The notes under the pieces were generated by a model. That model was not told the DNA's origin and made no database searches. It saw only the letters and a program-made list of their open reading frames with translations. From Thermoguttaceae bacterium (GTDB lineage Bacteria; Planctomycetota; Planctomycetia; Pirellulales; Thermoguttaceae): 45,745 nt of DNA. A program made the translations under genes and the position numbers. Positions 31,100-41,016 of the stretch are shown piece by piece (position 1 is the stretch's first letter; every line of letters begins with the position of its first letter). The stretch spans positions 1-45,745 of the forward strand of contig JAGCAH010000223.1 in the NCBI GenBank assembly GCA_017652805.1, in the 5' to 3' direction.

Positions 31100-32500
31100 T
31101 TACTCTTGGCTACTATTATTTAGCTTTTCGGCCAATTTGTCTAGGAGGGGGGCGACGTTTTTATAGGAAAAATCTATCGCCGCGAGCCGTTCCAGCATCC
31201 CCTCGGCTTTTTTATAGAGCCGGAGCCCGGCGGCCAGGAGCGCGCCGCCGTAAAGGGCGCTCTTTCCCTGTTCCGAGCCGAGGTTCTTTCCGAACGCCTC
31301 GATCGACTTTTCGTAGTGGGTCAGGGCGAGCTTGTACTGTTTGATCTTCTCGAAGCATTGGGCGATCGCCAGGAAGCAGACCGCTTTGAGCGACTCGTCC
31401 TGCTGCGCCTTCTGCAGTTCGCCGATCGCCTCGCGAAACTGCCCGTGCGCCACGAGGAACTGCCCATATTCGAAATGGACCGCGGTCGAGTTCGGGTTCG
31501 CTTCGAGTTTTCGGTGAATCAGCGCCAGCGTCGCCTCGTCGAACCCCTTTTTGGCGGCGACAACTTTCGCTTTCGCCGCGTCGGTCGGATTCTTTTTATA
31601 GAGTTCCTGCGCCTGATCGAGGTCGAGCTTGGCGCGTTCGCGACGGACGTCGTCGTAGCGGAGCTGAAGGTTTTTGTCTTCCGGAAAATACTTGAGCGCG
31701 CGGCGGATGGTGTCTTCTTCTCTCCGGCGGTTCCCGCGCATATTGAAGAAGCGGATGTAGTCGTCCCACAGGTCGTGGTCGTCGGGGGTTTTCGCCAGTT
31801 TCTTTTCGAAGGCGTCCTCTTCGCTGATATGGTTTTCGGCGTTCAGCGCGGCTTCCTTTTCGGCGGCGGTCTTTTTCCGCTCCATGTGCTGCATCGTCTT
31901 TTGAAGGAGCAGGTCTTTCATCATGCTGCTCGCTTCATGGTCGTTCGGCTTGACGTTCAGAATCCGCTGGCAGCAGGCGATCGCGTCGTCGAAGAGGTTT
32001 CGTTCGGCGAGTTCGTTGGTCGCGTAGCGGTTCACCTCGACGTTGGTCGGGTCGCAGTCGACGGCGTGCTTTAAGAGGGCCAGCCCGGTCTCGTCGTAGC
32101 CCAGGCCGAGCGACGCTTTGCCCATCGAAAAGAAGACTCCCGCGTCCCACGGGTTGAGCTTCAACAGTTCGGCGCCCGCCTTAATCACATCTTCGTGCTT
32201 CGAGCGGGTCTCGGCGACTTTCATCTGCGACCGCGCCGCGCCCCCCTTGAGTTTGGCGAACCCCGCCCCTTTTTTGTTATTGCCGTATTTCATCCGCAGA
32301 TTGGCGACGAACGACTGGAGGTAGATCAGGTTCGACGGGGCGTTCGTATAGCATTGCGAGAACATCTCGTTGGCGTAGTCGAACTCGCCGGCCTGCATCT
32401 TTTGGTTGCCGAACTCATAGCATTTCTGGAGCCGGGCGCGGAGCGTCTGGGAGAGGTGGGAGTTCTTTGCGTCGTTTAATAAGTTGTCGTCTTGCGGCAT
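31100..32500 (-). CDS. Cytoplasmic tetratricopeptide-repeat protein
   Basis: A 466-residue soluble TPR protein without signal peptide. Repeats are recognisable at about 25-60 (AGEFDYANEMFSQCYTNAP), 110-175 (two units with LNPWDAG and LKHAVDCDPTN), 180-210 (FDDAIACCQRILNVKPND), 330-390 and 400-460. A charged helical stretch rich in Lys/Glu lies near 205-240. TPRs mediate protein-protein contacts; the partner is unknown. It follows mcsB by 33 nt with a CGGAG ribosome site, so a functional link with protein arginine phosphorylation is possible but unproven. Confidence 0.8.
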   Translation of the reverse strand: MPQDDNLLNDAKNSHLSQTLRARLQKCYEFGNQKMQAGEFDYANEMFSQCYTNAPSNLIYLQSFVANLRMKYGNNKKGAGFAKLKGGAARSQMKVAETRSKHEDVIKAGAELLKLNPWDAGVFFSMGKASLGLGYDETGLALLKHAVDCDPTNVEVNRYATNELAERNLFDDAIACCQRILNVKPNDHEASSMMKDLLLQKTMQHMERKKTAAEKEAALNAENHISEEDAFEKKLAKTPDDHDLWDDYIRFFNMRGNRRREEDTIRRALKYFPEDKNLQLRYDDVRRERAKLDLDQAQELYKKNPTDAAKAKVVAAKKGFDEATLALIHRKLEANPNSTAVHFEYGQFLVAHGQFREAIGELQKAQQDESLKAVCFLAIAQCFEKIKQYKLALTHYEKSIEAFGKNLGSEQGKSALYGGALLAAGLRLYKKAEGMLERLAAIDFSYKNVAPLLDKLAEKLNNSSQE

Positions 32501-32533: not shown

Positions 32534-33586
32534 TTACGCGAGTTCCCGGCGCAGGTATTCGGCGCGCCGGACGAGCGCTTCGTCGTCGTCGAGGGGCCGA
32601 CCCGCCGCCAGTTCGAGGTGGGCGGGCTGAATCCGCAGAAAGAGCTCGTCGATCTTCTGCGCGGGAACCTCGTCCTGAAGACCCAGGTGCGCCCCCATCC
32701 GCAGGAACGAAAGGTGCGTCATCGCCTCTTCGGTCCGGATCTTCCGCGCCGATTTGAGGATCCCGATACCGCGGTAGATGCGGTCGAGCGTCTGCTGCTG
32801 TTCCTTTTCGATGAGGCGCTCGCGCGCTTTGCGTTCATACTCGACGATCTTCGGGATCACCGTCATCAGATGGTGGAGGATCTCCTCCTCGGCCAGACCG
32901 AGCGTCGCCTGATTGCTGACCTGGTAGAAGTCGCCCAGCGGCTTCGACCCTTCCCCGTAAAGCCCGCGCAGTTCGAGATTCATGGTCTGAATCGCGCGGA
33001 AGGCGCGTTCGGACTCGTTGGTGAGGATCAGCGCGGGAAGATGGAGCATCACGCTCATCCGGGCCCCCGTCCCCACATTAGAGGGGCAGGCGGTCAGGTA
33101 GCCGTGTTTCTCGTCGAAGGCGTAGGGGAGGAATTCCTCGTAGCGGTTATCGAGATCGTTGACCCGCCGCCACGGGGTTTCCAGATCGAAACCGGGCGCG
33201 AGAGCCTGCATCCGGAGGTGGTCTTCCTCGATCACCATTATACTGAAATTCTCGGTGCGTTCAACCAAAACGGCGCGTTCCGCCTCGCCGTCGAGGAATT
33301 CGCGGCTGATGAGCTGCCGTTCCAGAAGGCAGAGCAGATCGGCCTGCTGCAGCTCCGAGGCACCCAGGAGAAGATAGCTGTCCGGTTCCAGGAGTTTGGC
33401 CGACGCTTCGGTAAACGAGGAGATGATCTTTTCGCGGTCGAAGACCGAGAGCCGGTCGACGAACGGGTAACCGGCCAGGTTCCGCGCCAGACGGACCCGG
33501 CTTGAAAAGACCACGTCGCTTTCGGGCCCCCGGCAGGCGAGTCGGGTATCGACGTTCGTTACGAGTTGAGCGATCCTTGCGTCCAT
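32534..33586 (-). CDS. mcsB: Protein-arginine kinase McsB
   Basis: A 350-residue ATP:guanido phosphotransferase of the bacterial McsB type, which phosphorylates arginines on proteins and marks them for ClpCP in Firmicutes. It has SSRVRLARNLAGYPF (28-42), the catalytic Cys167 in CPSNVGTG (same number as in Bacillus-type McsB), and FDEKHGYLT just before it. The C-terminal helical region is also present. ATG at 33586 follows AGGTG. No mcsA, ctsR or clpC is adjacent; instead a TPR gene follows and a tRNA precedes. The usual activator McsA must therefore be elsewhere or missing. Confidence 0.94.
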   Translation of the reverse strand: MDARIAQLVTNVDTRLACRGPESDVVFSSRVRLARNLAGYPFVDRLSVFDREKIISSFTEASAKLLEPDSYLLLGASELQQADLLCLLERQLISREFLDGEAERAVLVERTENFSIMVIEEDHLRMQALAPGFDLETPWRRVNDLDNRYEEFLPYAFDEKHGYLTACPSNVGTGARMSVMLHLPALILTNESERAFRAIQTMNLELRGLYGEGSKPLGDFYQVSNQATLGLAEEEILHHLMTVIPKIVEYERKARERLIEKEQQQTLDRIYRGIGILKSARKIRTEEAMTHLSFLRMGAHLGLQDEVPAQKIDELFLRIQPAHLELAAGRPLDDDEALVRRAEYLRRELA

Positions 33587-33707: not shown

Positions 33708-33716
33708 TTTAGAGAG

Positions 33717-33789
33717 CGCCTCGACTAGGACTCGAACCTAGGACCCAGCGGTTAACAGCCGCTTGCTCTACCAACTGAGCTATCAAGGC
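33717..33789 (-). tRNA. tRNA-Asn (anticodon GTT)
   Basis: 73-nt cloverleaf. Acceptor GCCTTGA pairs with TCGAGGC, D stem GCTC/GAGC, anticodon stem AGCGG/CCGCT with loop CTGTTAA, T stem CTAGG/CCTAG with loop TTCGAGT. Discriminator G, no encoded CCA. Confidence 0.96.
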
Positions 33790-33889: not shown

Positions 33890-36800
33890 TCACCGGCCGG
33901 GAAGGAGTCCGGACATATCGCCGGAGGAAACCCCAGTTTCTGAAAGGCTCACGCCGATCTTCTCGGTATCGAGATTGAACGAGACGCTGTTGAACGTCTG
34001 CGTGCTGATCGGCGCGCCGATCCGTTCCTGCCGACTCAGCGTGGCGGGAGACAGGCCGTTGCCCGTCATCGACACCGTCCGTTTCCGATGATCGTATTTT
34101 ATCGTATCGGCGCGTCCGATAAAAGTCTGATATTTGAATCGCGCGTCGTCTCGGGCGGTTATCCCCATCGACCGCTCGGTCTCGCCCGACTGCGCCGACT
34201 CGGAGAGCTCCAGTTTGCCGCAGGAGAGATCGAACGTACCGGGCGGAAGCGGATCGATACCGTTGACGTCGAGATCGAGCTGCGGTTTTTCGCTCCCGAC
34301 CACCGCCAGACGAACATCCCCCTCGGCGTTCACGTGCCGGTCTCGGATATTCCCGACGATCCCGTTCCGAAAGACGAGGTGGAAATGAGTCCACGGTTTC
34401 TTCGCCTGCGCCAGGAGCGCCTCCTTCTGCGAATCGCCGCCGGTCCCGGCGGTGTCGCCGGCATCAATGTCGGGGGTCTCGACCATGCCCCGGAGCCAAC
34501 CCGGCCCGGAGACGGTTAAAACGCCGGTCTCGACCTCGATCTTCGCACTGGTCGCCTCGCCGCGAGCCCGTCCGCGGAGCGGCTTCTTTTCACCGGCGCC
34601 GGCGGTATCGGGGTCCGCCGGAACGACGCCGTTCCACGCCACGCTGACCGGAGCGGTGCGGGACCCCAGGCAGGTCGTCGTATTGAGCGGGAGTCTCTTG
34701 GCGCCGGAAGCGTCTTTCCCCATATCGAAATCGAAGATCTGAATCGGCTGTTTCAGACTCAGGACGATCATGGGGGATTTCAGCTCGACCGTACTCCCCT
34801 GCCGGACGATGACCTGATCGTCGTCTTTGGGACGTTCGGCGATCGACCCGTCTTCAGGCTGGGGTTTTCCGTGAAAGACGAGCTGCCGGCCGTCGAACGA
34901 CATGGAGCTCGGCCACCAGACCTCGACCGGCTCGTCCGAGACCGCGCCGCCGTCGGCCGACGGCATTCCCGAACCTTTCGGAATCGCGAACCGGAGTCGG
35001 CCGCGGCCTGACACCGAGAATCGATTCTCAGGCCGACTGACCTGAATATCCTTACCGATGAGAGTCAGGCCGCTCCCGACAAAGTTCGCCGGTGCGCCAT
35101 GGAGGGCGACCGTGACAAGGGAGGTTCCCGGATTCTCGATCTGAACGCTGTCCCCGTCGATCCGGAGGGTCTCTTTCCTTTCGAGCGGGTCGGTTTCTGT
35201 GACGCGGAACTCTCCCATCATCGTGACGAGCGGAACGTCGTACCCCTTGACCGGGCGCGGGGAAAGACAGATTTTCATCTCTCCCGCCGAAATGTCGAAC
35301 GTCGAGTTCCCCTCTTCTCCCATCATCGAGCCGCCGACGTCGAACGGGTTCCCTTTCGGCTTTTCGCCGACGAGCGACGAGCCCGCCGCGCCGCTCGGAT
35401 TCCGGTCGAAGACAAGATCGACCCTGTCCCGAATGAGGCACTTCCCGCGCGCGGCGGTCATCTCGACGTCCCCCGCCAGTTTCGCCGCCACCGGCGTGAT
35501 CTTCGGCATTTTCCCGTCCGAAGATCCTTCCTTCTTCCCCATCGGCGACTTAAACCAGAAATCGGCTTCCCGGGCGGTCAGCGAACCGAACAGGGTCGAG
35601 ACGACGCTGAGCCCGCCGCGAACCGACGCGACGTACATTTCCTTTTCTTCCGCGTCCGGAATGACCTGAACCTTTTCGTTCCAGGCGACGGAGAGATGCT
35701 CCGCCTCCTCGTCGGGCGAGTCGGTCGGCAGATCGGTTTCGAGGCGTCCCTTTCCGACGGCGATCAGCCGCTCGAGTCCCTCTTTGCCGTGGATATACTC
35801 GATCTGTTTTGAAATGAAGCTCAGCTTTCCGTACTGCAGAACGGTCTCCTCTTCCTCCTTCTGCGCCGCCGCGGGAATCGTATTTCCCGGAGTCGAGTCT
35901 TTGAGGGGGAAAAGCGCGAGCCGCTGCCGGGTGGGTTCGAAGGAGATGACCCCCGCCTCGGCGCTGACGAACCCCCCTTCGACCTGGAGCGACGACTTCC
36001 GTTCGGGCGAGCCGGTCGCGCTGATCCGGGAAGGTCTCAGCCGCGAGATTTTTCCGTTCGGCTTCCGTTTTCCCTTGTATAGCGATTCGAACTTGTCCAG
36101 CTTCTGCTGAAGTTCGCTGTCGCTGAGGTAGAAGGTGAGATAGTCGCACCGGATCGAGTCGGTCTGACGTTCTTCGTGAAACGCGGTGATCTCGACGTTT
36201 CCCGAAAAGCGCGCGCACCAGGTCGTCGGCCCCTCGTTCGGGTCCGGCTCGAAGATCACGCCGTCGCGGCACCGCACGTCCATCGTCACCTTCTTCGGCG
36301 TTTTACCGTCCCCCTGCGGCGCTTCTTCCGACCCGGGGTCGACCGACGCGCTTCCGTCCCACGGGTTCACGTCGGGGAGGGTCGGCAGAAAGTCGTCCAT
36401 TTCGAATTCGAGCCGGGTCAGTTTATTGAGCGTCACCTGACGGATCGAAAAGCCGTGGCCGACGTTCCCGTCGTTCAATTCGTCGTCGAGCGGCCCCTCT
36501 TCCGGCGCGGCATTCTCCCCTTCTTTCTTTTCTTCCGGAAGGGAAAGATCGATCGCCATACGGAGCCCGACCCCTTCGACCTGCCGCCGGCCGTAGTGAA
36601 TGATCACTTCGCTGTCGGTATTGATCGTTTCGAGGTTAAACGTGATGTTCCGGGTCGTCAGGCTGAAATTGTCGGCCGTGTTTTCGGGATCCATCACCGA
36701 CCGGATCGTGACCTGCCCCTGGAACTGCCCCCCCTCGACGTTGCTCGGCGAGAATCCCGCCGAAAGGGACTGAAAACTCAGTTTATCCTTGAATCGGAGT

Positions 36801-37216
36801 TCCACCTTATCGTTCGTCTCGATCACCACCGCGCGGCGGAACCGTTCCCGTTCCGAAAGATCCTTGTCGCCGCTCGGCCAGACGAAGGTGCACGCGTTGA
36901 ACGCGAGGGTCTCTTTGCCGGGTTCCGGTTCTTTCGGAAAAAGGAGGAGCCAGGAGCGGTCTTTGGCGATCACGCTCAGCGGATTGAGCCGACGCCAGTC
37001 GGTCGGGTTGGGAAAAACCTCGGCGAGGAGTTCGCTGTTCTCGCGGCTGATCCGTTCGACTTCCGACGACGCGTCGATCGTCGCGCGGGGCATCGACACC
37101 CGCTGCCGAACGGCGCGGGGCATGATGAACGTGGGAACGACGATCGCGGCGTAAACGACATACGCCCCCAGTCCGATCGCCAGTCCCACAAAGGTCAGCC
37201 AGAATTTGCTATACAC
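33890..37216 (-). CDS. Giant membrane-anchored OstA/LptA-LptC-like envelope protein
   Basis: A 1108-residue protein with one N-terminal transmembrane helix (about 5-30: FVGLAIGLGAYVVYAAIVV). A long, beta-rich extracytoplasmic region follows. Several segments have the rhythm of LptA/OstA beta-taco repeats, such as FSGNVEITAFHEERQ followed by CDYLTFYLSD, LAGDVEMTAARGK followed by DRVDLVFDR, and ADTIKYDHRKRTVSMTGNG near the C-terminus. Such domains bridge or carry lipopolysaccharide in LPS export. Start: GTG at 37216, preceded by GGAGGGG; an ATG four bases earlier is out of frame and soon stops, and the reading upstream of 37216 overlaps the barrel gene. It is third in an operon with a barrel gene 17 nt upstream. 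The LPS link is inference. Confidence 0.6.
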   Translation of the reverse strand: MYSKFWLTFVGLAIGLGAYVVYAAIVVPTFIMPRAVRQRVSMPRATIDASSEVERISRENSELLAEVFPNPTDWRRLNPLSVIAKDRSWLLLFPKEPEPGKETLAFNACTFVWPSGDKDLSERERFRRAVVIETNDKVELRFKDKLSFQSLSAGFSPSNVEGGQFQGQVTIRSVMDPENTADNFSLTTRNITFNLETINTDSEVIIHYGRRQVEGVGLRMAIDLSLPEEKKEGENAAPEEGPLDDELNDGNVGHGFSIRQVTLNKLTRLEFEMDDFLPTLPDVNPWDGSASVDPGSEEAPQGDGKTPKKVTMDVRCRDGVIFEPDPNEGPTTWCARFSGNVEITAFHEERQTDSIRCDYLTFYLSDSELQQKLDKFESLYKGKRKPNGKISRLRPSRISATGSPERKSSLQVEGGFVSAEAGVISFEPTRQRLALFPLKDSTPGNTIPAAAQKEEEETVLQYGKLSFISKQIEYIHGKEGLERLIAVGKGRLETDLPTDSPDEEAEHLSVAWNEKVQVIPDAEEKEMYVASVRGGLSVVSTLFGSLTAREADFWFKSPMGKKEGSSDGKMPKITPVAAKLAGDVEMTAARGKCLIRDRVDLVFDRNPSGAAGSSLVGEKPKGNPFDVGGSMMGEEGNSTFDISAGEMKICLSPRPVKGYDVPLVTMMGEFRVTETDPLERKETLRIDGDSVQIENPGTSLVTVALHGAPANFVGSGLTLIGKDIQVSRPENRFSVSGRGRLRFAIPKGSGMPSADGGAVSDEPVEVWWPSSMSFDGRQLVFHGKPQPEDGSIAERPKDDDQVIVRQGSTVELKSPMIVLSLKQPIQIFDFDMGKDASGAKRLPLNTTTCLGSRTAPVSVAWNGVVPADPDTAGAGEKKPLRGRARGEATSAKIEVETGVLTVSGPGWLRGMVETPDIDAGDTAGTGGDSQKEALLAQAKKPWTHFHLVFRNGIVGNIRDRHVNAEGDVRLAVVGSEKPQLDLDVNGIDPLPPGTFDLSCGKLELSESAQSGETERSMGITARDDARFKYQTFIGRADTIKYDHRKRTVSMTGNGLSPATLSRQERIGAPISTQTFNSVSFNLDTEKIGVSLSETGVSSGDMSGLLPGR

Positions 37217-37233
37217 GCATCCCCTCCGGCCGC

Positions 37234-38379
37234 CTAGTATTTGACATGGAACCCGCCCGAAACGGAATACGAGACGTTGTCCGGGGCGATGACATACGAG
37301 TAGTCGCAGAAGAGATCGACCATATCGCGCAGCTGCGCCGAGATGCCCGTTCCCAGAATGGCGTGGTCGCGCGGGAAGGTTTCGCCGCCGAACTCCGCGG
37401 CGATCGGGAACAGAAAGGTGTCGTCGGTCGTAAAGACGGTTTCGTCGCCGAACTCGTGCGCCCAGATTCCCTTGAGCTGAGGTCGGATCGTCGCCAGCGG
37501 GGTGGCGTACTCCCACGAGAAGCGGCTGCCGACAAACAGGCGCGCCGATTGGGGCGTTCGGCTGTCGTCATACGCCGAATCGTCGAACGGGTTGAATCCG
37601 CCGGCGCTCAGCGTGATATACCGCGCGCCGACGAACGGCTCGATGTGGGTGAACCCGCTGCTCAGTTTCAGACCCAGTTCGGTCTGGTAGTTCATCTGGG
37701 TCACGTTCCGTTTTTCGTTAAGCGAGGCGCCGGGAAGGTTCTTCTCGGCGCGGTTGCGGTTTCGGGCGACCCCGAGCGAGAGGTCCCAGTACCAGCGCGT
37801 TTCGCTGTAGGAGAAACGGGCCAATCCGCCGACCGAGGTGAGGCTCCCGTCGTAGCCGTACTCCTCCGGATCGATGTCCAGGTTGACGTTGACGGCGTGG
37901 AACCCGATCAGCGAGTTTTCAGTCAGAAGCCAGTCCGCGCCGAGCGTCTCGCCCCAGGCGCACGACTTAAACCCCCGTTTTATGTTCCTTTTGAGTGAAT
38001 CGCCGATAGGATCGGCTCCGTTGAGGAGATCTTCCACCGAGTACTCCTCCCAGGTCCGATCGGCCCACTGCCCGAAAGAGGTCCCGACGACCCGGAACCG
38101 GAACGGCGCGATCTCGAGCGTGCCGAAGTTTCCGCGGACGATTTCCGTAAAGAAGCCGGTCGGCCGAACGCCGCCGTCGAAGTCGGGCGCAAACGACACG
38201 GCCGGCCCCCCCTCGGGCGCCGGGGCGAAATCCCCGCCGAAGAACGTCGGCGCGCCGAATCGGAAGAAATCCGAAAAACGGCCGAGATAACCGGCCGTTC
38301 CCTCCCCCTCGAGCGCCGAGCCGAGCCGGGCGACACCAGCCAGAAGAATCGCGAGGAGGATCGGAAAGAGGTGTTTCAC
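37234..38379 (-). CDS. Outer-membrane autotransporter-type beta-barrel protein without passenger
   Basis: A 381-residue exported protein. A signal peptide (MKHLFPILLAILLAGVARLGSA) precedes a region that, after about 120 residues, has the alternating pattern of an autotransporter barrel. This includes RFSYSETRWYWDLSLGV, THIEPFVGARYITLSAGGF, RLFVGSRFSWEYATPL and the terminal strand VSGGFHVKY with a C-terminal Tyr. No long passenger is present. It starts at GTG (38377-38379) without a clear ribosome site, 27 nt after the preceding gene. The tight linkage to the OstA-like gene suggests an envelope role, possibly a receptor or translocation pore. Confidence 0.75.
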   Translation of the reverse strand: MKHLFPILLAILLAGVARLGSALEGEGTAGYLGRFSDFFRFGAPTFFGGDFAPAPEGGPAVSFAPDFDGGVRPTGFFTEIVRGNFGTLEIAPFRFRVVGTSFGQWADRTWEEYSVEDLLNGADPIGDSLKRNIKRGFKSCAWGETLGADWLLTENSLIGFHAVNVNLDIDPEEYGYDGSLTSVGGLARFSYSETRWYWDLSLGVARNRNRAEKNLPGASLNEKRNVTQMNYQTELGLKLSSGFTHIEPFVGARYITLSAGGFNPFDDSAYDDSRTPQSARLFVGSRFSWEYATPLATIRPQLKGIWAHEFGDETVFTTDDTFLFPIAAEFGGETFPRDHAILGTGISAQLRDMVDLFCDYSYVIAPDNVSYSVSGGFHVKY

Positions 38380-38406
38380 TCGATTTTCGGGGGTGTTGAT
38401 TCGGCT

Positions 38407-39204
38407 TTATTTCGGGTTAGACGGCGTGAGCATCGGAAGCCCGCCGGGAATGCGGTTTTCCGACTCCGCCCCGTCGGACGGCGTCATCGCCAGCCGGGTC
38501 GGCGGCGCCGGCTCGGCGTCCGACAGGAGGGTCTTTTCGGCGGGCGCCCCGGGAGCCGGTTCGGCGGCCGTCCCGGTAGTCGGCGCGGCGGCTGTTGTCT
38601 CGGCGGTGGGCGCGGCGGCAGCGGCGGTCTGGTCGCTCGGCGCGGCGGGCGCCGGTTCGGCGGCAGGCGCGCTCTCGGCCTCTTTGTGCGGAATCGGCAT
38701 CACCGCCTGGGCGGTCATCGCCGCGTCGTCGTTATTCCGCGAGACGACGAAGCCGGTCTCGTTCTTATCGAACCCGACGTTGACCGAGTGGGTTCCTTTC
38801 GGACTGAGCATAGCTATATACGCGCCCTGCCCCCCGTCGCCGGCTCCGATTTCGCAGAAAATCGGCGGGTCGTCGGTCGACGGGTCGCCGGTCGTGATCT
38901 GGAGTTTCCGGCCGACCATTTCGAGCCCCCCCACGTAGCGCGAGAGAACCTCGTTTTTCGCCAGAATGACGCCGTCTTTCAGTTCGATGAGGGGTTCCCC
39001 CGTCTCGCTGTGGCAGACCCAGATCCCGCCGGTCACTTTCAGCCGGTCGACCTGGAGTTCCTCGAACTGCGTCGCCGCCGCCTGTTCGGCCGCGGGCGGC
39101 TCGACCGGCTTGGGGGCGAGTTCCCCCTTCCAATGCAGAACGCCCAGAGCCGCGGCGCCGCCGGCGAGGGCCGAAATCACGATATTTTTGAATGTTCCGT
39201 TCAT
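38407..39204 (-). CDS. Membrane-anchored protein with Ala/Pro-rich tail, unknown function
   Basis: A 265-residue protein. It has an N-terminal hydrophobic anchor (VISALAGGAAALGVLHW), then a compact beta-rich domain (about 45-165) with LQVDRLKVTGGIWVC, LIELKDGVILAKNEV and GAYIAMLSPKGTHSVNVGF. The low-complexity Ala/Pro/Thr tail (about 178-250) resembles a periplasmic or cell-wall-spanning linker. I do not recognise a named family. It leads the operon with the barrel and OstA-like genes. A TATAAT lies about 55 nt upstream. Confidence 0.7.
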   Translation of the reverse strand: MNGTFKNIVISALAGGAAALGVLHWKGELAPKPVEPPAAEQAAATQFEELQVDRLKVTGGIWVCHSETGEPLIELKDGVILAKNEVLSRYVGGLEMVGRKLQITTGDPSTDDPPIFCEIGAGDGGQGAYIAMLSPKGTHSVNVGFDKNETGFVVSRNNDDAAMTAQAVMPIPHKEAESAPAAEPAPAAPSDQTAAAAAPTAETTAAAPTTGTAAEPAPGAPAEKTLLSDAEPAPPTRLAMTPSDGAESENRIPGGLPMLTPSNPK

Positions 39205-39672: not shown

Positions 39673-41016
39673 ATGGAAGTCAAAAGAAATTTTGGACGGA
39701 CCCTGTTGCTTGCCGCGATTTTCGGCGCGGCAAGCATAACCATGGCCGATGAGGCGAGTGATTTCATCACGACCGAGTCGTCCGCCGCCCCCGCGGCCGT
39801 CGAAGCGGTCGACGCCGACATACCGACCGCGGCGCCCGCCGAAAAGGCCAAGGCGGATTTTGTCGAGACGATGGTTCATCACGATACGATTCAGGCGTGG
39901 GACATCATCGAACTGGGCGGTTTCGTCAACGGCGGCGCGATTCTCAACACGCACGGCGCCGAATACAACATGGTCGGTTGCAACTCGGACCGCGATTTTC
40001 AGATGAACACCGCCTACATCCGCGCTGTGAAAAAGGCGCAGACCGGACGCGGTGCGCTCGACTGGGGTTTCGGAGCCGACGCCCTCATCGGCAGCGAAGG
40101 CCATCTGTTCCGCGGCTACACCGGTCTGGACAGCGACTGGACGACCGGCCACCGTTCCTCCGACTACAACCAGGTCGCCGAGCTTTCGGACGCCGAACGC
40201 GAGAACTACGCCGGCGCGATGCCGCAGCTCTACGGCGAATTTACGGTCAACAACTGGGATTTCAAGGCGGGCCGCTTCTACGGTCTGATGGGTTATGAAG
40301 GCCCGGGCGACAGCCGCTTCTTCTACACCTACGGCCGCGCGTTCGAACTGACCCCGGTCACGCACACCGGCGCGATCGCGACCTTCTCGGGAATCCAGAA
40401 CATTGACCTTTCGGTCGGCTGGGTGATGGGCGAGAACAACATGTTCAGCCGCCTATACGACGAAAGCCTGATCACCGGTGCGGTGAAGATCAAGAACGGC
40501 GACTGGCTCGGGCTCAAATACGCCTTCCTCGTCGGCGATGGCGCGCTGGGCGGAACGAGCGGCGACCTCTTCCGGAACGACGTGGTTCTGACCGCGAACC
40601 TGGGCAATTGCTGGGAAACCGCCCTTATGTACAACTACGGTAAATTCGACGGCGAATCGCCGGCGGGCGAATGGGGCAAAAGCGCCACGCTCAACGACCT
40701 GGCGCAGATGTACGGCAGTCTGAAATACCAGACCTATGGCGGGTTCCTCTACTACACGCTCAACCAGAACTGGAAGGTCGGCACACGCGGCGAATGGCAG
40801 CGCGGCAAGGCCGAAGGCGACGCGATGGAAATCTATGAATTCACCTTCGGCGCGAACTGGACCCCGACCGGCTACGACAACTTCGCGATCCGTCCGGAAA
40901 TCCGCTACGACAAAGTGCACACCGCCGACGCCAGCGGATACGAAGGGATGTTCGGCAACGGCCTGATCCACGACGATCAGTTCACCCTCGCCTGCGACAT
41001 GATCTACAAGTTCTGA
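39673..41016 (+). CDS. BBP2-type outer-membrane beta-barrel porin
   Basis: A 447-residue exported barrel. A signal peptide (TLLLAAIFGAASITMA-DE) is followed by an acidic Ala-rich spacer, then a barrel from about residue 78 (ELGGFVNGGAILNTHG). Alternating amphipathic strands follow (LDWGFGADALIGSEG, YGEFTVNNWDFKAGRFYGLMGYE, MIYKF ending in the C-terminal Phe needed for barrel insertion). It resembles the OmpL-like BBP2 porin group. Unusually even codon use and a strong GGAAGG ribosome site suggest high expression. It is closed by a strong terminator. It is divergent from the envelope operon. Confidence 0.85.
   Translation: MEVKRNFGRTLLLAAIFGAASITMADEASDFITTESSAAPAAVEAVDADIPTAAPAEKAKADFVETMVHHDTIQAWDIIELGGFVNGGAILNTHGAEYNMVGCNSDRDFQMNTAYIRAVKKAQTGRGALDWGFGADALIGSEGHLFRGYTGLDSDWTTGHRSSDYNQVAELSDAERENYAGAMPQLYGEFTVNNWDFKAGRFYGLMGYEGPGDSRFFYTYGRAFELTPVTHTGAIATFSGIQNIDLSVGWVMGENNMFSRLYDESLITGAVKIKNGDWLGLKYAFLVGDGALGGTSGDLFRNDVVLTANLGNCWETALMYNYGKFDGESPAGEWGKSATLNDLAQMYGSLKYQTYGGFLYYTLNQNWKVGTRGEWQRGKAEGDAMEIYEFTFGANWTPTGYDNFAIRPEIRYDKVHTADASGYEGMFGNGLIHDDQFTLACDMIYKF

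Follow-up and report, generated by a model that had tools for sequence, protein, structure and literature searches.

A giant anchored LptA-like protein is the likely single-chain bridge of lipopolysaccharide transport in a group of planctomycetes

The stretch of DNA analysed here (hereafter the window: 45,745 nucleotides from a Thermoguttaceae bacterium, which make up contig C157 of an assembly of 2.68 Mb in 286 contigs, with completeness rated at 87%) carries a trio of genes on the minus strand, one of which (33890–37216, with a GTG start and GGAGGGG just upstream) encodes a giant protein of 1108 amino acids (aa). We propose that this giant is, with good probability, the LptC- and LptA-like bridge, in a single chain, of the planctomycete lipopolysaccharide (LPS) transport (Lpt) machine, feeding a separate and divergent LptD. 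The direct support for this proposal consists of homology to LptA, internal repeats, a predicted LptA-like fold in two segments of the chain, the position of the gene in relatives, and the co-presence of LpxC, LptF/G and LptD; its function, membrane topology, contacts with LptF/G and LptD, and cargo are inferred.

The clearest family assignment lies near the C-terminus of the giant, where residues 993–1054 (34055–34240, minus strand) match PF03968 (OstA/LptA/LptD_N) at 23.7 bits, above the cut-off of 20.4, and at 18.3 bits in a genome-wide six-frame search. The same family is detected at E ≤ 0.1 in 13 of 21 members of the giant family, ours included. As a single query the giant matched no PDB sequence; a profile of the 21 members, searched against all PDB sequences, returned eight matches up to E 10, all of them LptA (best E 9.6e-4, the other seven 0.034–0.36), and their best stretches are spread over three distinct regions of the profile. 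At E ≤ 0.1 none of the 21 giants had a match to an AsmA-like Pfam family, and we ruled out an AsmA- or TamB-type assignment, for which there is no profile match and, in the fold search with the middle model described below, only a TamAB chain at Z 4.1. The giant contains internal repeats: when blocks of its family alignment were compared using hhalign, block 300–500 resembled 760–870 (94% probability) and 880–1090 (91%), and block 455–610 resembled 630–785 (91%), 760–870 (91%) and 880–1090 (90%), making five non-overlapping pairs at about 90–94%. Two of the 15 pairs (300–500 with 455–610, and 630–785 with 765–870) were dropped as repeats, as they merely share an overlap. At the other end of the chain a hydrophobic anchor (residues ~5–30; 37127–37204, minus strand) is read from the sequence as a single N-terminal helix, which appears as helix 16–30 in a low-confidence model, and it is followed at residues 165–221 (36554–36724, minus strand) by a sub-threshold LptC-like stretch. 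The giant is thus not of the small soluble periplasmic LptA type, given its 1108 aa and hydrophobic N-terminus, and it scores below the LptA equivalog TIGR03002 of NCBIfam (15.9 against a cut-off of 71.7 bits). By curated equivalog cut-offs it is a member of neither LptA nor LptC; it probably works like both. A first-pass annotation of this DNA had described the protein as beta-rich, N-terminally anchored and bearing OstA/LptA-like segments, a description borne out by the Pfam, profile, repeat and fold evidence, and of the families it had named for comparison LptA is matched above cut-off through PF03968, LptC stays sub-threshold and AsmA-like families do not match.

The predicted fold, another point raised in that annotation, resembles Lpt proteins in those parts that the models cover. 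In a full-length AF2 model, predicted from four sequences, a C-terminal unit (residues ~880–1064; 34025–34579, minus strand) is predicted to form an LptA-like beta-taco and aligns with LptA 2r1a at Z 12.5 (VIA-align; rmsd 2.4 over 129 residues). The top 27 rows of that search are all Lpt chains, 26 of them by title and the other being the LptD–LptE entry 4q35, with the first unrelated row at Z 6.4, and Foldseek places LptA fourth (E 2.6e-3, probability 1.00). When residues 305–785 were modelled alone, AF2 gave a moderate-confidence model (pLDDT 67.3) in which a second putative beta-taco unit (residues ~629–785; 34862–35332, minus strand) aligns with LptA 2r19 at Z 8.8 (rmsd 2.9, 118 residues); here rows 1–18 of VIA-align are all Lpt, 17 by title plus 4q35, and LptA ranks first in Foldseek (E 3.4e-3). 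LptD rows for this middle model at rmsd ~14–17 were not counted as structural evidence. The models thus predict two separate beta-taco units in one chain; the full-length model was dropped as a description of the whole path, for which it is too weak.

In E. coli the genes run kdsD-kdsC-lptC-lptA-lptB, and by analogy with this order the giant gene of most relatives occupies the lptC–lptA slot, apparently as one gene instead of two. KdsC was found above cut-off in 46 of the 60 genomes of the order that we searched, and the giant gene could be located in 43 of these, taking the nearest listed giant match within 3.5 kb of an above-cut-off KdsC as occupying the slot. It lies downstream of kdsC on the same strand in 34 of the 43, at a distance of 784 nt or less in 30 of the 34. 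In the other four (G021, G056, G039, G057) the distance is 1.2–2.9 kb, since the match listed there covers an internal portion of the giant frame, and adjacency is presumed; in nine of the 43 the giant is on another contig or elsewhere than kdsC. One locus (L052) has both a KdsD-type isomerase (TIGR00393) and KdsC (TIGR01670) above cut-off, giving the kdsD-kdsC-giant order that recalls the E. coli operon in other genomes of the order, and by clustering the neighbour families of this kds locus recur at other loci.

The remainder of the Lpt machine is encoded in the same genomes. LptF/G and LpxC are each found in 58 of the 60, our own included, which has two LptF/G proteins (120.5 and 86.6 bits). 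The Pfam LptD model matched in only seven genomes (four over cut-off) and not in our own, but an alignment of those seven proteins found matches in 59 of the 60, ours included; absence of LptD from our genome was therefore ruled out, the Pfam result being a sensitivity artefact. The divergent LptD-like protein of our genome, encoded elsewhere than the giant, has 1202 aa (contig C199, L117:11029-14637); taken alone it matches no Pfam family and one unrelated PDB entry, and the LptD family profile gave a single, weak match among PDB sequences, to LptD itself (7omm, E 0.024). The presence of LptD, LptF/G and LpxC speaks against the suggestion of the first-pass annotation that a lipid route different from LptA–LptD might operate here. 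That annotation had also regarded a complete canonical Lpt set without co-occurrence of the operon as incompatible with its proposal, and here the outcome is divided: the set is present, while no separate LptA or LptC was detected. A stand-alone LptC (PF06835) was found in none of the 60 genomes at E ≤ 0.01, in a search that matched five of 14 control genomes. PF03968 gave 23 matches at the same threshold in 22 of the 60 genomes (14 over cut-off), of which 20 lie in giant frames and three in LptD-like frames, so that no small LptA is among them; in this tally the G031 match lies in a frame of 506 aa at the position of the giant, and the G057 giant was assigned by its place. These absences of separate LptA and LptC carry little weight, since many giants also escape the same models.

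By sequence search the giant family is present in 55 of the 60 genomes, ours included, and one of the five others (G057) has a 1076-aa OstA-bearing frame downstream of kdsC. In a sample of 246 genomes of the phylum the family matched in 45, comprising 16 of the same class, ours included, and 29 others with weak matches; 12 of the 16 same-class matches cover nearly the whole giant profile, and no same-class genome is among the listed non-matches (181 further non-matches fall outside the listing). One weakly matching family (f62, in eight genomes) has frames of 662–667 aa, six of which read as proteins of 655–664 aa. In one of the six, from another lineage of the phylum (L110:826-2808, 660 aa), the fusion is plain: behind a hydrophobic N-terminus a single chain contains an evident LptC domain (64.6 bits, cut-off 21) and three LptA stretches (81.5 bits, cut-off 20.4). 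All domains of an LptC–LptA fusion are thus above cut-off in the 660-aa protein but not in the giant, with its one PF03968 stretch and sub-threshold LptC. Searched alone against PDB sequences the 660-aa protein gave unrelated matches only; a profile of six f62 proteins matched the giant family with 96% probability over the LptA-like parts and, at 91%, along a stretch starting inside the LptC domain. The 660-aa protein should be well suited to structural and biochemical work on the fusion.

If the giant is such a bridge, its N-terminal helix would anchor it in the inner membrane beside LptF/LptG, its N-terminal region taking the role of LptC, and several tandem LptA-like beta-taco modules would form one continuous groove. 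The LptFG transporter would extract LPS and drive it along this groove, and the C-terminal module would dock on the N-terminal domain of the separate, divergent LptD, with no separate LptA taking part. LptA of E. coli (YhbN; PDB 2r19, 2r1a, 8onu) is a small periplasmic protein that oligomerises, and the giant resembles it in the predicted beta-taco over residues 880–1064 and ~629–785 and in the above-cut-off OstA profile, while differing in being one anchored chain of repeated modules. To LptC (PF06835, TIGR04409; PDB 3my2, 4b54) it is linked by a putative single N-terminal membrane helix, predicted to be followed by beta strands, and by the gene slot after kdsC in relatives, while its sequence match is sub-threshold and its chain continues through LptA-like modules. 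We see about an even chance that the whole class builds its periplasmic Lpt bridge in this way, from one covalent chain of fixed length and one polypeptide per bridge, without LptA subunits or oligomerisation. Bridge length would then be set by gene length, probably matched to an unusual periplasm, the number of modules would vary between lineages (~660 aa in one, ~1000–1250 aa in others), and fusion and divergence would account for much of the 'largely reduced' Lpt set discussed below.

Several observations weigh against this proposal. The full-length model, mainly strands and loops, is poor (pLDDT 48.6, pTM 0.35), and its two lowest Foldseek E-values belong to unrelated large proteins (6sup and 9g2h, probabilities 0.25 and 0.13). 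For the middle model, rows 17–18 and the first unrelated row share the same Z of 5.9, the best Z of 8.8 is little over the 7–8 that the tool gives as usual for models without a clear match, and Foldseek returned no match at E ≤ 0.001. With models that are poor to moderate, a continuous groove is not established. Three further non-overlapping block pairs reach only 48–66% in hhalign. The case for an LptC in the N-terminal region is weak: the LptC-like stretch stays below its cut-offs (PF06835, 15.8 against 21 bits; TIGR04409, 20.3 against 38 bits), N-terminal block 60–235 has no match among the other giant blocks (best 5.5%), its identification with LptC by profile comparison found no support (0.4% against the clear LptC block of the 660-aa family), and the empty PF06835 search of the 60 genomes counts in the same direction. 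A diverged small LptA may be missed by PF03968, which detects 22 of the 60 genomes although the giant is in 55. In our own genus, where four genomes have a KdsC assigned with confidence, the giant is beside kdsC in none of them, and directly next to the giant gene there is no ABC ATPase bearing an LSGGE, LSGGQ or FSGGE motif (a motif scan only, with no LptB/LptE family search), two further departures from the E. coli operon. Two such ABC ATPases lie ~5–7 kb from the giant gene, in L056 and L058.

The other two genes of the trio bear on what the giant's partners might be. Next to it lies a gene for an autotransporter-type beta-barrel (37234–38379, minus strand; 381 aa, GTG start), whose only Pfam family is the autotransporter beta-domain PF03797 (residues 131–361, 95.3 bits); the ~130 residues that precede this domain contain no passenger family of Pfam or NCBIfam, and the barrel profile had no match in the PDB. 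The third gene (38407–39204, minus strand; 265 aa, ATG start) encodes an Ala/Pro protein that belongs to no Pfam family, with a hydrophobic N-terminus and an Ala/Pro-rich tail, both read directly from its residues, around a conserved core. The gaps within the trio are 27 and 17 nt, and the position and spacing given in the first-pass annotation were verified. In L002 and L056 the orthologous frames have their first start codon in line with the GTG start of the giant (37216); for the L001 orthologue the matching start was picked within a longer frame. Gene order and reading frames of the trio are kept in close relatives, so the trio is not due to chance, and as a unit it is limited to one subclade. 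Matches to the barrel profile occur in 12 of the 60 genomes, nine of them strong and one weak (G015), with two further matches inside frames of 1203 and 1111 aa (G049 and G032, respectively). The Ala/Pro protein occurs in ten genomes, with a barrel match alongside in all ten. The pair adjoins the giant in only five of the 60 (G000, G002, G003, G004, G006), and in five others (G001, G005, G015, G026, G034) it is on a different contig from the giant. Barrel and Ala/Pro protein (37234–39204) are thus a conserved two-gene unit separate from the giant, given this pairing and the rarity of the pair beside it, and not the bridge's conserved partner; linkage and distribution rule out the barrel as the bridge's outer-membrane end. 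The first-pass annotation had proposed a trans-envelope lipid or LPS bridge, which stands as the most likely role of the giant, while the barrel as its outer-membrane partner does not.

Three other explanations were weighed against a single-chain LptC–LptA bridge. That the trio forms a dedicated trans-envelope system for a non-LPS lipid, with the giant as bridge and the barrel as outer-membrane end, would suit the tight spacing and shared strand and the co-occurrence of barrel and giant in all seven genomes of the genus that were searched, our own among them. Across the order, however, the giant is found far more widely than the barrel (55 and 12 genomes), the two are adjacent in five and on different contigs in the five named above, and the same genomes have LptD, and we consider this explanation very unlikely. 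It is unlikely, too, that a small LptA and LptC escaped detection and that the giant works alongside them as an additional bridge carrying phospholipid or another glycolipid. PF03968 and PF06835 are indeed insensitive in these genomes, and the first non-Lpt row of the fold search is LPD-3 (9cap, Z 6.4), presumably of the bridge-like lipid-transfer protein class; a second bridge would, however, have to be squared with a gene that follows kdsC in 34 of the 43 genomes, with PDB profile matches that are LptA in eight of eight cases, with the lack of any AsmA-like Pfam match, and with a plain fusion in another lineage (L110).

A resemblance to Lpt proteins that arose by chance or composition, in a long protein of beta repeats with some unrelated role at the surface or in structure, seems to us extremely unlikely. 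Low overall model confidence, the unrelated large proteins at the lowest Foldseek E-values and the moderate Z values of the middle region could be read in its favour, but the sequence-profile, repeat, fold, synteny and fusion-homologue evidence is independent and concordant.

In E. coli neither the number of LptA copies across the periplasm nor the stability of the bridge is settled, and a natural bridge of fixed length would make both testable; a length series of such bridges across lineages would be a natural experiment on periplasm width. The nearest analogue of the giant in logic is the elongated MlaD of Veillonella parvula, which has been proposed as a single-chain phospholipid bridge (PMC10665443): it too is one long anchored chain in place of separate carriers, and differs in its MCE domain, phospholipid cargo, own outer-membrane barrel and different fold. 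LptD and BamA were reported in all planctomycete genomes published by 2012, in a paper whose main text does not mention LptA or LptC (PMC3422733); that LptD presumably belongs to the family matched here in 59 of 60 genomes, which is likely to provide the giant's outer-membrane partner. The Lpt system of planctomycetes has also been listed as largely reduced (PMC8871954). A single-chain LptC–LptA bridge would, if true, explain how these two statements fit together. Elsewhere LptC, LptA and LptB of Borrelia are described as encoded by separate genes (PMC10353723), and for E. coli the LptC–LptA–LptD bridge and its stability are discussed in a text where the names lptCA and LptCAD occur (PMC9972910). 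Among the papers that searches of the open-licence PMC literature listed, a scope that leaves out most subscription papers and all preprints, titles and displayed abstracts contain no description of a single-chain LptC–LptA protein in planctomycetes.

Downstream of the giant gene lie a tRNA-Asn (gtt; 33716–33789) and genes for a McsB-type protein arginine kinase (32534–33586) and a TPR protein (31100–32500), the latter two present in L001, L002 and L056 too. A BBP2-family porin (39673–41016), divergent from the trio, adjoins the trio in L001 as well. In one relative a Rex redox-sensing repressor (L043:8131-8823) is directly upstream of the giant gene, with homologues in the same place in L044 and L045 by clustering only. 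Three relatives of the giant are found in records titled uncultured planctomycete isolate RUG14216, RUG695 and RUG11210, where RUG presumably denotes rumen genomes.

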